54,364 nucleotides of DNA. Source: Deltaproteobacteria bacterium (GTDB lineage Bacteria > Desulfobacterota > Syntrophobacteria > Syntrophobacterales > Syntrophobacteraceae). The notes below the pieces were generated by a model. That model was given only the letters and a program-made list of their open reading frames with translations, did not search any database and was not told where the DNA came from. Positions 3,748 through 41,084 of the stretch are shown one piece after another; position 1 is the first letter of the stretch, and each line of letters opens with the position of its first letter. The stretch is from assembly GCA_021777755.1 (NCBI GenBank), contig JAJYDE010000024.1, forward strand, positions 1 through 54,364. Reading direction: 5' to 3'. Both the position numbers and the translations under genes were made by a program.

Positions 3748-4314
3748 CTAAAACACATAGTTGACGTATTTTTCCGTTGCATTGGCATTTTGTTTGATAA
3801 CAGCCGGGTTTCCGATAACAACCGAGTTGCTCGGTACGTCAAAATTGACATACGCATTGGGCGCGATGAGAACATTGTCTCCAATGACGATCCTTCCGAC
3901 CACCACGGCCCCGACTCCGATAAAAACCCGGTTGCCGATCTTCGGGCATCCTGTTTTCTTGCCCCTGTTCATTTGGCCGATCGTAACAACATGACCAAGG
4001 GTGCAATTGTCCCCTATTTCCGCTTTCCCATTTATCACAACAGGCCCTCGGTGACCTATATAAAGCCCCTTTCCTATAGTTGTATTAGCTGGTATCTGAA
4101 AGCCGTATTTATTTGTGTAGTGTAAAAGCAGCGCTCTATAAAAAAACCCTCTGACCGAGTGTTTAGGATATATCGCGGCATGCCGCAAAATGTATGTATA
4201 CCTGAATCCCGGCATGGGAGGGAAAAGTGCCTTGAGGAAAAAACATTTGGCCTTCGCGCCGTTGTACCTGAAGAAGTCGGCCCGGAGATACTCCCCGAGG
4301 TCTTTTCGTTCCAT
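3748..4314 (-). CDS. Hexapeptide-repeat acetyltransferase (serine acetyltransferase-like)
   Basis: A left-handed beta-helix acyltransferase of the CysE/WbbJ type. The 188-residue protein has a helical N-terminus (ERKDLGEYLRADFFRY) and then imperfect hexapeptide repeats (TTIGKGLYIGHRGPVVING, AEIGDNCTLGHVVTIGQ, CPKIGNRVFIGVGAVVVG, IVIGDNVLIAPNAYV). It is shorter than housekeeping CysE (about 270 residues), matching the short form found in exopolysaccharide clusters, so acetylation of a sugar or lipid-linked intermediate is more likely than cysteine synthesis. The ribosome-binding sequence GAGGGG overlaps the 3' end of the deacetylase gene, which stops three bases upstream, implying translational coupling. 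Confidence 0.85.
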   Translation of the reverse strand: MERKDLGEYLRADFFRYNGAKAKCFFLKALFPPMPGFRYTYILRHAAIYPKHSVRGFFYRALLLHYTNKYGFQIPANTTIGKGLYIGHRGPVVINGKAEIGDNCTLGHVVTIGQMNRGKKTGCPKIGNRVFIGVGAVVVGRIVIGDNVLIAPNAYVNFDVPSNSVVIGNPAVIKQNANATEKYVNYVF

Positions 4315-4317
4315 TTT

Positions 4318-5097
4318 CTACCCCTCGGAGGCGCTGGCGACTCTCGAAACCTTATCGAGCAAAGCCCGGCACAACCTGCGCGCTCCGGTTTCGATGGGCC
4401 TTCGCATCAAACGCGATCGAAAATCTTTCAACCCCATCTCACGAGTCATAGTCACACGGGGGAGAAGATAGGTGTTGGCGGATGCAGTGCGCATCCAGCC
4501 CCCCACGGCCAGGGCGCATTCATAGCCGGCGGCCTTGACGGTCTCGACAACCCGCGGCGACCATTGGCCCCAGGGGTAGGAAAAAACGCGGAAGGATTCA
4601 CCGAGAAAGCCAAGTCGGTCACAAGAATCGGTGAGTTCTCGAAGCATCTCGGCTTCGTCCAGGAGGGGCAGATTCGCGTGCGTCGCCGTATGGCTGCCAA
4701 GACTCATGCCCCGCGCCTTTATCGCGCGGACCTCATCTTCGGTCATGAGCCGGCCCCGCGCCGCGGCTCCGTTCCACAATGCACGCCCCCCCAACATATC
4801 GGTTACCAGAAAAACGGTCGCGGGCGCCCCCCGATCGGATAATACCGGCAGCGCATCGGTAAAAAAGTCCTGGTAGCCGTCATCGAAGGTCAAAACCACC
4901 TTTTTTAGCAAATCCCCGTGACTGCGGGCCCGCAGCGCTTGGAGAAGAAAGGAGAGGGTAACGATTTCGAAGCCGTGGTCGGAAAGCCAGGAGAGCTGCT
5001 CCCGGAAAGTCTCGACCGTAACCGAGTACAGGTCATCGGGATTGTCGGCGATGGAATGATACATCAATATGGATGGTCCAACACTTAAAACGGACAT
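4318..5097 (-). CDS. Polysaccharide deacetylase (NodB / carbohydrate esterase 4)
   Basis: Removes N- or O-acetyl groups from a polysaccharide or sugar-lipid intermediate. CE4 motifs are visible: MYHSI near the N-terminus, the metal-binding aspartates in VVLTFDDGYQDFF, the zinc-ligand pair in LGSHTATHANL (H-x3-H), and the later strand SYPWGQWSP. I place the start at ATG 5095-5097 (MSVLSVGPSIL) rather than at an upstream codon near 5166, because the family begins close to the SILMYHSI strand and GGGGAG precedes this ATG by a few bases. It is the first gene of the leftward polysaccharide operon, about 375 bp downstream of a sigma70-like promoter. Confidence 0.88.
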   Translation of the reverse strand: MSVLSVGPSILMYHSIADNPDDLYSVTVETFREQLSWLSDHGFEIVTLSFLLQALRARSHGDLLKKVVLTFDDGYQDFFTDALPVLSDRGAPATVFLVTDMLGGRALWNGAAARGRLMTEDEVRAIKARGMSLGSHTATHANLPLLDEAEMLRELTDSCDRLGFLGESFRVFSYPWGQWSPRVVETVKAAGYECALAVGGWMRTASANTYLLPRVTMTREMGLKDFRSRLMRRPIETGARRLCRALLDKVSRVASASEG

Positions 5098-5940
5098 GGC
5101 TCCCCGGTAATAAACCCGCGCGAAATGACAGCCGCCCCTCCTCAAAGGAACAGGGCCGGAACTCACCCGACTCCCCCGAAGGTACAGCTCCGCATACTCG
5201 GTTACCTATCCAGGGGACGAAACGCTCGAAAAATCACCTTTTCCGGAGCCGCTCCAAGCCTGAGCATGCTCGGAAAGGCCCGGTCATTTGCGCCGGGCAC
5301 TCACCCCGACAATCGTCATGACCTGAAAAACGGCCGGACAGCTCCGCCCGCCAGATCGCTCATTTCGCCCCGTCAAAAAGGCCCCGCCCCGGAAAAGCCA
5401 TAGTCTTGGGATAAGAGTAAAAAAGGTGCCCACAATGATGTCGAAACGATTCATTCAGTTCGATATATTTGTTGCCATAATAATAATGATACCAAGTAGA
5501 AAGTCAACATAGATGTCTACGACCTGATTGACGGCCGTATGACACCCGCCTCGAAGTCATTAAAATTATATCTACTTTTAAATCTTTCCTCCCGGCGTTG
5601 ATTTCCGCGACCCAACTGCCACACTTTTGCTATTTTGGCAGGCCGAGCCACCCCTTACCTTTTATCACGCCTGCTCATATTATCGGCTGATTTTTCAAAA
5701 ACTTTAATCCTTTTCCTCCCAACCGGTCTCCGGGATCTAACGAACAAGGCCTTCGACAGGTCTTTTCGCCCCGGTCCCCAGGCTCATTGGATGCGGCGAC
5801 CAGAAGCGGCAACCCCGCGGGGACCGGCTCATCAGGCCCGCAAGGCGAGACAACAGGCCGATTTCATGATGCGGATGCGGAGGAAGGTTAAGGGATGCTC
5901 GAAGAGCGCAGATTAAATGAATGACCTCATCGGCTCCCAT
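5098..5940. other. Gene-free stretch before the polysaccharide operon
   Basis: No convincing coding region on either strand: open frames here are short, proline/arginine-rich and lack family features. It holds the promoter near 5480-5507 and its GC-rich leader. A 15-bp sequence, CCGGCTCATCAGGCC, occurs near 5825 and again near 6012 on the other side of the tRNA terminator. Confidence 0.5.
5480..5507 (-). promoter_or_regulatory. Predicted sigma70 promoter for polysaccharide operon
   Basis: Reading leftward, TTGACT (5502-5507) and TATTAT (5480-5485) are separated by 16 bp in an AT-rich island. The next gene in that direction is the deacetylase at 5097, implying an untranslated leader of roughly 375 bases. 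Prediction from consensus match only. Confidence 0.5.
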
Positions 5941-21252: not shown

Positions 21253-22806
21253 TCAACTCCTCGAAAAATGGGCCACAATGGCCTCGGCCAGCCCCCCGAT
21301 AGTGTACTCGGAAGGCATGATGGAAGTCTTGAGTCCGAACCCGGCGGCTGTTTGCGCCGTGACCGGGCCGATGCAGGCAATCACCGTCCCGCCTTTGCAC
21401 TGTTGGAATTCGTCTTTTCCAACCATGGTGAAGAAATTGGAAACGGTTGAAGAGGAGGTGAAGGTGAGGCAGTCTATCCGGCCATCGGTCAATAGCGAGC
21501 GGACCTTTTGAGCGTCGCGTTCGGGAAGAACGGTTTGGTAGGCCGGGACCACGTCAACCCTTGCGCCCTGTTCTCGAAGCGTTTCGGGAAGGATTTCCCG
21601 GGCCACCATGGCGCGGGGCATGAGGAATCGTTTACCGGCCGCATTATAGCCGGACAGGGCCTCCAATACGGCTTCGGCCCGGTATTCCGAGGGAACCAGG
21701 TCAGGGTGCAACATGACCGCTTCGAGCGCCTCGGCCGTCTTGGGACCGATTGCTCCAAGGCGGACGCCGCTTAGCGCCCGGGCGTCTTTTCCCGCCCGCC
21801 GCATCCTGCCTATGAAGGATTTGACGCCATTTACGCTTGTAAAAATAATCCAGTCGTAGTCCGAAAGAACGCTTATCGCCGTATCGAGCGGGTCCCACGA
21901 CGGAGGGGGAACCACCTCGATTGTTGGAAACTCGATGCACTGGGCGCCCAGTTCCTCCAGTTTCGCCCTGAAATCGCTCGACTGCTCCCTTGCCCGCGTG
22001 ACCACGATCTTTCGTCCGAATAAGGGTCTGCGCTCAAACCAGTTGAGTTCCTCGCGACATTTTATGACTTCTCCCACGACGATGATGGCCGGCGGCTGCA
22101 AGTTGGCCTCTTTGACCTTATCCACGATATCGGCAAGAGTTCCCGCAACGGTTTGCTGCATGGGTGTGGTGCCCCAGCGAACCAGCGCTATCGGGGTGTC
22201 GGCGGACCTGCCGTTTGCAACGAGTTTTTGGCATATGTCGGGGAGGTTTTTTACCCCCATGAAAAAAACCAGGGTACCTACGCCCGTGGCGATCTTGTCC
22301 CAGGCAATTTTGGAGTCCGAGTCCTCTTTATCCGCCCTTTCGTGGCCGGTAATGAAGGCGATGGTGGAGGTAAGGTCCCGGTGGGAAAGGGGAATGCCCG
22401 CATAGGCGGGAACAGCGGCCGCGGCCGATACGCCGGGCACGACTTCGAATTCGACGCCGGCTTCCAGAAGCGCCTGCGCCTCCTCGCCTCCCCGGCCGAA
22501 AATGTAGGGGTCCCCGCCCTTTAGCCGAACGACCAGATTTTCACGCCCCTTTTCGACCAGCAGCGTATTGATGCCCTCCTGCCCCAGGGTGTGCGCTCCG
22601 CCCTTTTTGCCCACGTAGATGCGCTCGGCGTCGGTGGGAGCGAATTTTAGCAGTTCCTCGTTAGCCAGGTAGTCGAAAATCACCACTTCGGCCCTTTCGA
22701 GGACTTGCCTGCCCTTCAGGGTAAAAAGGCCCGGATCCCCCGGACCCGCGCCAACCAGATAAACCTTGCCTTTTTTCACCGTGTTCTCTTTTCCATCCGA
22801 ATTCAT
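21253..22806 (-). CDS. cobA-hemD: Fused uroporphyrinogen-III C-methyltransferase / uroporphyrinogen-III synthase
   Basis: Bifunctional tetrapyrrole enzyme: HemD cyclises hydroxymethylbilane to uroporphyrinogen III, and the SUMT half methylates it to precorrin-2 with S-adenosylmethionine, feeding siroheme, cobalamin and, in many anaerobes, heme by the siroheme route. The SUMT domain spans about residues 12-255 (VYLVGAGPGDPGLFTLKG, VRLKGGDPYIFGRGGEE, VPGVSAAAAVPAYAGIPL). The HemD domain spans about 262-517 (KIVVTRAREQSSDFRAKL, DWIIFTSVNGVKSF, LTFTSSSTVSNF). The start overlaps the hemC stop by four bases. No separate hemA/hemB appears in the window. Confidence 0.95.
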   Translation of the reverse strand: MNSDGKENTVKKGKVYLVGAGPGDPGLFTLKGRQVLERAEVVIFDYLANEELLKFAPTDAERIYVGKKGGAHTLGQEGINTLLVEKGRENLVVRLKGGDPYIFGRGGEEAQALLEAGVEFEVVPGVSAAAAVPAYAGIPLSHRDLTSTIAFITGHERADKEDSDSKIAWDKIATGVGTLVFFMGVKNLPDICQKLVANGRSADTPIALVRWGTTPMQQTVAGTLADIVDKVKEANLQPPAIIVVGEVIKCREELNWFERRPLFGRKIVVTRAREQSSDFRAKLEELGAQCIEFPTIEVVPPPSWDPLDTAISVLSDYDWIIFTSVNGVKSFIGRMRRAGKDARALSGVRLGAIGPKTAEALEAVMLHPDLVPSEYRAEAVLEALSGYNAAGKRFLMPRAMVAREILPETLREQGARVDVVPAYQTVLPERDAQKVRSLLTDGRIDCLTFTSSSTVSNFFTMVGKDEFQQCKGGTVIACIGPVTAQTAAGFGLKTSIMPSEYTIGGLAEAIVAHFSRS

Positions 22807-23750
22807 ACACCGCCCGGACCCGTTTCAGAAGCGCGGCAGACTTCATCGAGGATCTGTCTTGCCCCCTTGCCCAGAAGTTCTTCGGCCACCTTCTTGCCGA
22901 GCGCCACCACATCTTCGAACGGCGCCGATCCCAGCGCCCGAAACATCTGCCGGCCATCGAGAGAAGCGACCAGCCCGAAGAGTTCGACGACTTTTCCGGC
23001 AATTCGGGCATATCCGCCGATAGGGACCTGGCAGCCGCCTCCCAGTTCCAGCAGAAGGCTCCGTTCGGCCCGCACCGCGGTCGCGGTTTCAAAGTGATCC
23101 AGGGGTTCGAGAAGACGCCTTATGGCGGGGTCTTCCAACCTGGTCTCAATCGCAAGCGCCCCCTGTCCGACGGCCGGGATGAACTCGACCGGGTCCATCA
23201 ATACGCTCGCCCTGGCTCCCCACTCCATTCGGTTCAGACCTGCCGCGGCCAGGATGATTGCGTCAAACCGGCCTTCATCGAGCTTTCGAAGCCGCGTATC
23301 CAGGTTTCCGCGAAGATCCCGGATTTCAAAATCCGGGCGCATGGCACGCATCTGCGCAGCCCGCCTCAAACTACTGGTGCCGATGAGCGCACCCCCGGGC
23401 AAATCGGCCATCTTTTCGCCATCCCGGATAATCAGGGCGTCGCGCGGGTCTTCCCTCTCGGGCAGGGCCGCTATTACCAGGCCTTCGGGCAAATCGGCCG
23501 GAACGTCCTTCATACTGTGGATCGCAAGGTCGGCGGAGCCCTCCAGAAGCGCGTCCTCGATTTCCTTGACAAAAAGGCCCTTGCCCCCCACTTTGGCCAA
23601 AGGCGCGTCCGTTATCTTGTCACCGGTGGTCTTTATGATCTGAAGTTCGAACCGGATGTCAGGCCAGAACCTCTCAAGGGCGGCTTTCATCATCCCGCTC
23701 TGCCTGAGAGCGAGCATGCTGCCTCGTGTGGCTATCCGGACAAGTTCCAT
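22803..23750 (-). CDS. hemC: Porphobilinogen deaminase (hydroxymethylbilane synthase)
   Basis: Polymerises four porphobilinogens into hydroxymethylbilane. The 315-residue protein starts MELVRIATRGSMLALRQS; the catalytic aspartate lies in HSMKDVP (D82), the arginine-rich substrate pocket in GTSSLRRAAQMRAMRP, and the dipyrromethane cofactor is attached to Cys240 in GGGCQVPIGGYA. It is directly upstream of cobA-hemD with an ATGA overlap, giving consecutive pathway steps, and follows the small FmdB-like zinc-ribbon gene by 21 bp. Confidence 0.97.
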   Translation of the reverse strand: MELVRIATRGSMLALRQSGMMKAALERFWPDIRFELQIIKTTGDKITDAPLAKVGGKGLFVKEIEDALLEGSADLAIHSMKDVPADLPEGLVIAALPEREDPRDALIIRDGEKMADLPGGALIGTSSLRRAAQMRAMRPDFEIRDLRGNLDTRLRKLDEGRFDAIILAAAGLNRMEWGARASVLMDPVEFIPAVGQGALAIETRLEDPAIRRLLEPLDHFETATAVRAERSLLLELGGGCQVPIGGYARIAGKVVELFGLVASLDGRQMFRALGSAPFEDVVALGKKVAEELLGKGARQILDEVCRASETGPGGV

Positions 23751-23771: not shown

Positions 23772-24008
23772 CTAGTGGCAGGTGGCGCAGCTTCCACCCG
23801 AGCATCCGGCGCAACCCGAAGCCGTGGAGGAGGCCACCCGGCTGCTTGCCGCCCCTTTGTCCCCGCCGCTTTTGAACCCGCAAACCGACATCACCTTGTT
23901 GATGTTGGCAGACTGGCACTTGGGACAGCCAACCGGTTCGTCACCTCGAAAGACAAGCTTTTCAAAACGCTCGCAGCACTCGCAGCACTCATATTCGTAT
24001 ATCGGCAT
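23772..24008 (-). CDS. FmdB-family zinc-ribbon protein
   Basis: Small putative regulatory/zinc-ribbon protein (78 residues) of the FmdB/CxxC-CxxC-SSSS family. It starts MPIYEYECCECCERFEKL, with the second knuckle GCPKCQSANINKV, and has the usual low-complexity Ser/Gly/Cys tail ending in CAGCSGGSCATCH. ATG 24006-24008 has GGAGG upstream; a longer reading to 24035 adds nothing conserved. It is the first gene of the hemC operon, and the inverted heptad-repeat arrays lie just upstream, where its promoter should be. Confidence 0.88.
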   Translation of the reverse strand: MPIYEYECCECCERFEKLVFRGDEPVGCPKCQSANINKVMSVCGFKSGGDKGAASSRVASSTASGCAGCSGGSCATCH

Positions 24009-24100
24009 CTTTAAAACCTCCGCGGAAGCCGTCAAACAGTAAGTAGACAGTAGGATTTAAAATAACATGTCGAAAGACAAGGTCCAACCTAAAAGAAGGC

Positions 24101-24191
24101 AGCGGGGAGCGAGTAGCGGGGAGCGAGTAGCGGGGAGCGAGTAGCGGGGAGCGAGTAGCGGGGAGCGAGTAGCGGGGAGTGAAGAGCGGGC
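24101..24191 (-). repeat. Heptad tandem array 1
   Basis: Thirteen contiguous 7-bp units. On the plus strand they alternate AGCGGGG and AGCGAGT, ending with AGTGAAG and AGCGGGC. Read on the minus strand they are GCTCCCC and GCTACTC, that is, the same GCTNCYY family as array 2 but in opposite orientation. It lies 90 bp upstream of fmdB. Confidence 0.95.
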
Positions 24192-24257
24192 GGGTGCGTG
24201 TCGGTTGCTGGAAGGTTCCGATCCGCGCCCCCTTCCGGGGGTACATTACCGCCATCC

Positions 24258-24529
24258 GCTACTCGCCACTTGCTACCCGCTCCTTGCTCCTTGCTACCCG
24301 CTACCCGCTCCTTGCTACCCGCTCCTTGCTACCCGCTCCTTGCTACCCGCTCCTTGCTACCCGCTCCTTGCTACCCGCTCCTTGCTACCCGCTCCTTGCT
24401 ACCCGCTCCCCGCTCCTTGCTACCCGCTCCTTGCTACCCGCTCCTTGCTACCCGCTCCCCGCTCCTTGCTACCCGCTCCTTGCTCCCCGCTCCCCGCTCC
24501 TTGCTCCCCGCTCCCCGCTCCCCGCTACC
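24258..24529 (+). repeat. Heptad tandem array 2
   Basis: Thirty-eight contiguous 7-bp units plus six bases, nearly all one of three variants: GCTACCC, GCTCCTT and GCTCCCC; the first two units are GCTACTC and GCCACTT. The first half mostly alternates GCTACCC/GCTCCTT; the right end is richer in GCTCCCC. The last partial unit contains the stop codon (24525-24527, minus strand) of the upstream gene. Sixty-six bases separate it from the oppositely oriented array 1. Confidence 0.95.
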
Positions 24530-25490
24530 GCCTTTCAATCTCTTCCAAAACCGCGGCCATCAACAGCGGAAACATGATTTCGTGGTGGCCGGTAAGACTT
24601 ATACCCGTACCGCCTCCCATCGTGGGCCTTTGCACCACGTTTACCATCGGCCTGTACTGACGCAGGAAGTCCATGTTGACCGTGGTAAGGGCTTCGAGCG
24701 AAAACCCCAGGTTTCCGGCCACACTGACAGCCTTCAAGAATACTTCCGGGATCACAACCGCCGAACCGAGGTTTATGAAAACCCCGTGTTGAAGGGTCGA
24801 AACAAGGGAGCAAAACAGGCGGAAGTCCCGGTAGGTAAGTGCCCCCATGGCCGCACCGTCCATTTCCGGATGCATGTGTATAATGTCTGTCCCGATGGCG
24901 ACATGGACGGTCACGGGCACATGGTTCCGGGCGGCGACGGCGAGAATGCTGAGGTTTGCAAAGGGAGTATTTTCGGCGAGAAGGGCCTTTCCGACCGCCC
25001 CGCCAAGGCCTTGCCCGCCCCGGGAATAGGCCCGGGACACGGCCCCCAGGATGAATTCGGCGGTCTCGCGCGCCATGCCGAACTCGCCGCTCCCGAGATG
25101 GGCCGCGACATCTTCGGAAGTCTTCCCCGCCAGGGCGATTTCCACGTCGTGGATCATCCCGGCTCCGTTCATCGCAACTCCCGAAAAGATGCCCCGTTCG
25201 ATGGCCTCGATAATCAAAGGACTCACGCCGACCTTGATGGGATGGGCACCCATTCCCAAAATGACCGTCTTTCCGCTTCCGGCGGCCGCGGATACGGCCG
25301 AGGCCGCTTTTCGCAGGTCCCGGGCCGCAAGGATATCGGGAAGTGATTCCATGAAGCGGCCAAAAGAGTCGCCGGCCGCGGTCGGGTGTGCAAAATCGGC
25401 CGTCGTCACCTTGCTTTGCCGCTCATAGAGGCTTGACGTCTTGATTGCGCCCAATTCCAGGGGTACCCAGTCGAGTTTGCGCGCTCCCAT
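24525..25490 (-). CDS. Conserved-looking protein of unknown function
   Basis: A 321-residue soluble protein I do not recognise with certainty. It contains glycine-rich, well-ordered segments: ADFAHPTAAGDSFGRF, VILGMGAHPIKVGVSP, GVAMNGAGMIHDVEIAL, VPVTVHVAIGTDIIHMHPEMDG, INLGSAVVIPEVFLKA and PTMGGGTGISLTGHHEIM. The pattern of nucleotide-binding-like loops faintly resembles the deoxyhypusine-synthase-type NAD fold, but I would not name it so without a profile search. It follows murA by nine bases on the same strand, so is co-transcribed with murA and prmC. Its stop codon lies in the first unit of a heptad-repeat array. Confidence 0.75.
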   Translation of the reverse strand: MGARKLDWVPLELGAIKTSSLYERQSKVTTADFAHPTAAGDSFGRFMESLPDILAARDLRKAASAVSAAAGSGKTVILGMGAHPIKVGVSPLIIEAIERGIFSGVAMNGAGMIHDVEIALAGKTSEDVAAHLGSGEFGMARETAEFILGAVSRAYSRGGQGLGGAVGKALLAENTPFANLSILAVAARNHVPVTVHVAIGTDIIHMHPEMDGAAMGALTYRDFRLFCSLVSTLQHGVFINLGSAVVIPEVFLKAVSVAGNLGFSLEALTTVNMDFLRQYRPMVNVVQRPTMGGGTGISLTGHHEIMFPLLMAAVLEEIERR

Positions 25491-40857: not shown

Positions 40858-40909
40858 ATTCGGTGACTTTGAGAACGACATTCGGTGACTGGGAAGAGCA
40901 TTCGGTGAC
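40858..40909 (+). repeat. Left-end transposase-site cluster
   Basis: Three direct copies of ATTCGGTGAC at 40858-40867, 40880-40889 and 40900-40909, spaced 22 and 20 bp, i.e. on about the same face of the helix. Flanking bases AGAGC and AACGAC recur beside copies at the right end. Confidence 0.8.
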
Positions 40910-41084
40910 TAATTCACAAAATTGTCGTTCCCAGGGCGACCGAGGTCACAGGGCTTTTTGACAGGTAACCTTGGAAAAATTAACGGGGGCTAAAAGAGCA
41001 CGAACCTCTCCTGTCCGATTTGATGAGCTAATCGGTTCGGAATAGGTAGCTAGCGGATGAACAGGCTTAAATATACTTACGCCC

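Follow-up and report, generated by a model that had tools for sequence, protein, structure and literature searches.

Facing heptad arrays between the murA and hemC gene runs of a Desulfobacterota genome belong to a dispersed repeat family with fixed polarity

The two arrays of tandem heptads described here lie between the murA and hemC gene runs of a Syntrophobacteraceae genome (contig JAJYDE010000024.1 of assembly GCA_021777755.1, analysed as a stretch of 54,364 nucleotides, the window). They are members of a lineage-specific dispersed family, (RRGNAGC)n, which has many copies, lies almost entirely in intergenic DNA, differs in its units from species to species and keeps a fixed polarity. The position given in the original prediction, made from the sequence of the window, was correct: array 2 starts where a GSU2086-family gene has its stop codon, and array 1 is situated just above the FmdB/hemC run. 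The features of the locus are listed in Table 1.

Table 1. Features of the locus, in coordinates of the window.
Feature	Position	Strand	Remarks
hemC	22803-23750	-	TIGR00212, 355 bits
FmdB-type zinc-ribbon gene, first of the hemC run	23772-24008	-	PF09723 / TIGR02605
Promoter-like block TTGGAC-N16-TTATTT	24060-24087	-	Conserved in five relatives; upstream of fmdB/hemC
Array 1	24101-24190	G-rich strand on +	~13 heptads; 14-bp period, 6.4 copies (Tandem Repeats Finder)
Spacer between array 1 and array 2	24191-24257		67 bp; single-copy in the genome
Array 2	24258-24529	G-rich strand on -	~39 heptads; 14-bp period, 20.4 copies (Tandem Repeats Finder)
TAG stop codon of the GSU2086-family gene	24525-24527	-	Within the first heptad of array 2 (sequence)
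GSU2086-family gene, downstream of murA	24525-25490	-	NF052581, 399 bits

Both arrays share the unit RRGNAGC, read on the G-rich strand. They had been predicted to hold 13 and 38 units on opposite strands, 66 bp apart; the opposite strands and the size of array 1 were confirmed, whereas array 2 holds about 39 units and the gap is 67 bp. Read unit by unit on the - strand, array 1 consists of five GCTCCCC/GCTACTC pairs plus decayed units, and array 2 is made up of 15 GCTCCTT, 14 GCTACCC, 7 GCTCCCC and 3 single variants. On the G-rich strand GGGGAGC thus alternates with GAGTAGC in array 1, while array 2 is chiefly an alternation of AAGGAGC and GGGTAGC, with GGGGAGC close to the gene end. Units two positions apart were identical in 20 of 34 cases, compared to 11.7 in shuffled arrays, so that the alternation exceeds chance. 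It is the pattern expected from expansion of 14-bp pairs, and the duplication proposed for it in the original prediction is borne out. Both arrays are crisp on the side of the gene or promoter, and their units degrade toward the spacer (GGGGAGT and GAAGAGC at the inner end of array 1; GAGTAGC, AAGTGGC and GGATGGC at that of array 2), a gradient that is only partly significant. Within the spacer, CCCCC-GGAA-GGGGG forms a small hairpin, which lacks a T run. Elsewhere in the window, a 20-bp tandem repeat (2.5 copies, 40858-40910) bears no relation to the heptads.

Along the - strand, murA is followed by the GSU2086-family gene, array 2, spacer, array 1, promoter-like block, FmdB-type gene and hemC, and the G-rich strand of array 2 is the sense strand of the GSU2086-family gene upstream. 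In relatives this gene has different last residues and usually a different stop codon. The arrays had been thought to sit where the hem promoter should be. However, relatives without the arrays keep the block TTGGAC-N16-TTATTT, which is intact in the window, with array 1 stopping about 13 bp from it. Since the block is conserved in array-free relatives and lies beyond array 1, the arrays do not replace the hem promoter. A scan of the locus for consensus promoters and terminators gave no match to a consensus sigma-70 promoter or to a terminator; the block is therefore regarded as a putative hem promoter, on the basis of its conservation. Because array 1 ends near this block, and array length and units change between species, a length-variable array might tune hem expression by altering the spacing or the shape of the DNA above the promoter. 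Yet the array lies outside the block, and arrays of the family occur at many other places in the genome, which makes such tuning very improbable. No evidence was found for the insulator or tuning role specific to hem that had been suggested.

The search for further arrays in the genome and its relatives, as suggested with the original prediction, was productive. The three-unit pattern had 170 matches in the genome of the window, compared to one for a reversed-pattern control, which is far more than chance would give. This genome, a draft of 103 contigs, has 28 array starts; the counts and the lengths are approximate, since arrays form the ends of several contigs. Contig ends or starts inside heptad arrays were seen at positions 1-261 of record L031, at the end of L033 and in several contigs of genome G005. 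Short-read assembly thus breaks in the arrays, and array counts are lower bounds. Within the genus, 7 of 11 genomes contained array starts (1 to 90 in each of the seven), and in a sample of the phylum any array was found in 15 of 297 genomes (5%). With a simple codon model for gene prediction, 128 of 139 arrays lay outside predicted ORFs. The fourth letter of the unit is mostly T or G in the genome of the window, A or G in G005 and G008, and G or A in G007; this species-specific composition suggests that the units spread or are homogenised within each genome. Loci that bear arrays in several species exist, and are few in the sampled stretches. At one of them (L182, L199 and L258) three species share a facing pair, flanked by the same two genes, in which the units have changed. 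Arrays also differ in length between species.

Dispersed copies and inverted ends would fit a mobile element, MITE-like or REP-like, with the heptad arrays as its termini. The spacer, however, is single-copy, and after masking of the arrays no common core was found among the array loci of the window's genome. The spacer itself has no conserved core, and the shared core or palindrome that marks MITE and REP elements is missing. A Y1/RAYT-type transposase was considered as the driver and rejected: Y1 transposase genes occur similarly in genomes with and without arrays and show no link to array content. We therefore find a mobile element of this kind extremely improbable. Many short arrays of G005 (seen at L162, L171, L176 and L179) terminate in GGGAAGAAAAMC. 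Just beyond lies a stretch of loose similarity that bears a hairpin (CATGGTTTC and then GGGTGTCCC) and may belong to a larger dispersed element.

For the analysis of polarity, 80 array regions were drawn from G005, G008 and G007, and the genome of the window added another 12. Loci were picked by array pattern alone, ignoring gene context, and genes were predicted by a codon model rather than taken from annotation. Among the 128 intergenic arrays of these four genomes, 58 overlapped a stop codon or followed it within 30 bp with the G-rich strand as sense, and none had the opposite orientation, counts that come from a sample of loci in which neighbouring arrays are not fully independent. Array starts were concentrated within a few bases of the stop codon. 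On the start-codon side, 10 arrays lay up to 30 bp upstream with the G-rich strand antisense and none with it sense. The gene 5' of the G-rich strand was the nearer neighbour in 94 of 115 arrays (p 3e-12). This preference was strongest between tandem genes with the G-rich strand sense (68 of 70) and weaker where the 5' neighbour was a start (24 of 34). The same analysis of another five genomes, including three that lie outside the genus, gave 18 to 1 at stop codons and 27 of 33 arrays nearer the gene at the G-rich 5' end. The G-rich strand hence begins at a gene boundary and heads into intergenic space. Because it runs away from the nearest boundary, neighbouring arrays face each other: in the four genomes 21 G-then-C pairs were counted against one C-then-G pair, which was located inside a duplicated pair. 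An inverted pair, considered unusual in the original prediction for a place where the hem promoter should be, is accordingly a normal arrangement at gene boundaries, in the RRGNAGC family as well as in the published Xanthomonas heptads.

Several repeat systems of bacteria invite comparison. The STRR of heterocystous cyanobacteria are intergenic tandem heptamers whose definition does not include a pair architecture, and their unit sequences appear to differ from RRGNAGC. REP and BIME elements are likewise intergenic, lie 3' of genes and form stem-loops; REPs are conserved palindromes, unlike the RRGNAGC arrays, which are tandem heptads with unique spacers. The closest match is provided by the G-rich heptads GGGAATC of Xanthomonas and GGGGAYT of Nostoc, which are dispersed and intergenic (Rehm et al. 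2015, PMC4692102). Those heptads lie nearest to the 5' ORF (in Xanthomonas at a mean of 28 nt, compared to 160 nt), read on the sense strand when they overlap or follow stop codons and on the antisense strand before starts, and in Xanthomonas form convergent inverted pairs, with 70 and 75 cases (PMC4692102). The arrays studied here share the tandem 7-bp unit with one G-rich strand, the genome-wide and mostly intergenic dispersal, the G-rich strand nearest the 5' ORF, the sense orientation on the stop side and antisense orientation on the start side and, with the Xanthomonas heptads, the convergent pairs. They differ in unit sequence and in phylum, and are thus of the same kind and of another sequence family. 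Moreover, array 2 exceeds the published maximum of 26 units (PMC4692102), and canonical G-quadruplex motifs are missing from the arrays of the window and from most arrays of its genome. The TAACTGA direct repeats of Beggiatoaceae, cyanobacteria and Bacteroidetes are also dispersed intergenic heptads of unknown origin; however, they lie just upstream of start codons, consist of one fixed unit and are almost never inverted (MacGregor 2015, PMC4679880). In the open-access literature we found no report of such arrays in this bacterial group. The RRGNAGC family is a new case of Rehm-type G-rich heptameric repeats, in Desulfobacterota, and the original assignment to a kind of tandem heptad known in bacteria holds.

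The ability to form a long hairpin, also part of the original prediction, was supported by predicted folds (z about -7.5): the RNA of the locus has a predicted fold of -240 kcal/mol (z -7.6), and the DNA a z of -7.4. Such stability, and the retention of an inverted pair at one locus in three species despite changed units, would agree with a selected RNA hairpin that separates the murA-GSU2086 unit from the hem unit as a terminator or insulator. Against this, in four genomes the arms of a pair match each other no better than arms swapped between loci; the single, weak exception was seen at 42 nt in the genome of the window (p 0.04). Pairing is thus not shown to be selected, and arm-to-arm matching was discarded as proof of a selected hairpin. 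Most arrays of the family also lack a partner, and the window has neither a T run nor a terminator match. Taken together, we consider a selected hairpin rather unlikely. It has been proposed that the heptads of Xanthomonas and Nostoc act as G-quadruplexes (PMC4692102), on DNA or RNA. In the window, the runs of GGGGAGC and GGGTAGC give quadruplex-like motifs with loops of up to 12 nt in both arrays, but no motif of G3+ with loops of up to 7 was found in array 1 or array 2. Canonical motifs occurred in 8 of 12 arrays of G318, but in only 6 of 24 arrays of the window's genome and in none of 8 in G042, and the polarity rule holds with or without the motif. The canonical G-quadruplex was consequently dropped as common denominator of the family, and action of the repeats through such structures appears distinctly unlikely. 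At this locus no support was found for a hairpin under special selection, for a G-quadruplex or for control specific to hem.

The history of the locus was followed through the genus, where the GSU2086-family gene is present in 9 of 11 genomes, including that of the window. None of the eight other carriers (L043-L050, matched by coordinates) has these arrays at the orthologous place. A small ORF occupies the array slot in L047 (G003), L050 (G002) and the more distant L052. In L047 this ORF (4972-5349), which lies between the GSU2086-family gene and fmdB, is a cyclophilin-like gene (PF04126). L043 (G001) retains the end of the same gene as a remnant just after position 4629 (VGKAIGDARMFKCVRDGDLIELDLIG vs VIGKLTGDARAFKAVHDGDLIELEVAR), and the gene is gone from the window. 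Arrays therefore occupy a site of gene loss in part of the genus. The spacer was considered as a further remnant of the lost gene and rejected, its similarity being no higher than that of shuffled sequences. Other contents of the same intergenic region were noted. L049 (UBA696, G009) carries at about 5080-5200, in the fmdB leader, an independent inverted octamer array (GGAATTNA) with the G-rich arm first; G009 holds more octamer arrays, for example at G009:C77:11026-11111, although in the octamer search the reversed control also scored 9. In L046 (G008) three copies of the octamer GAATCGGT immediately follow position 4294, where the GSU2086-family gene has its stop codon; they are possibly a nascent array. 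L045 (G005) has two small ORFs at about 1800-2550, which we take to resemble a toxin-antitoxin pair of the DUF433/DUF5615 type.

The account that we favour, and hold to be probably correct, is that of a dispersed (RRGNAGC)n family whose polarity is set by boundaries, an inverted pair arising from two of them. Copying and slippage, the latter by expansion of 14-bp pairs, would spread and homogenise the family within a genome, and selection would let arrays persist only as far as functional sequence begins. At this locus that limit would be set on one side by the final codon of the GSU2086-family gene and on the other by the hem promoter block. Bounded in this way at both ends, a pair of arrays could grow toward each other and yield the inverted arrangement, although the boundary-seeking direction of growth is read back from the end state. 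The RNA of the upstream gene would then carry a G-rich arm immediately behind the stop codon and a C-rich arm ahead of the hem promoter, arms predicted to fold into a long imperfect hairpin. Such a hairpin may end or stabilise the murA-GSU2086 transcript and part it from the hem unit with its own promoter. This effect would be a by-product or a mild benefit rather than a hem-specific switch.

A different origin, which seems improbable, would be a single undiscovered process that adds G-rich heptads to DNA ends in a fixed direction, akin to telomere addition; both 3' ends of a break would receive units and then join. If true, it would yield exactly G-to-C inverted pairs with a unique spacer. 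Heptads of differing units in Gammaproteobacteria, cyanobacteria and Desulfobacterota share one polarity relative to gene ends, which calls for a common cause, and we found none proposed in the heptad papers cited here. The genus described here, in which the number of array starts per species varies between zero and about 90 and the letters of the unit differ, is a good place to seek it.
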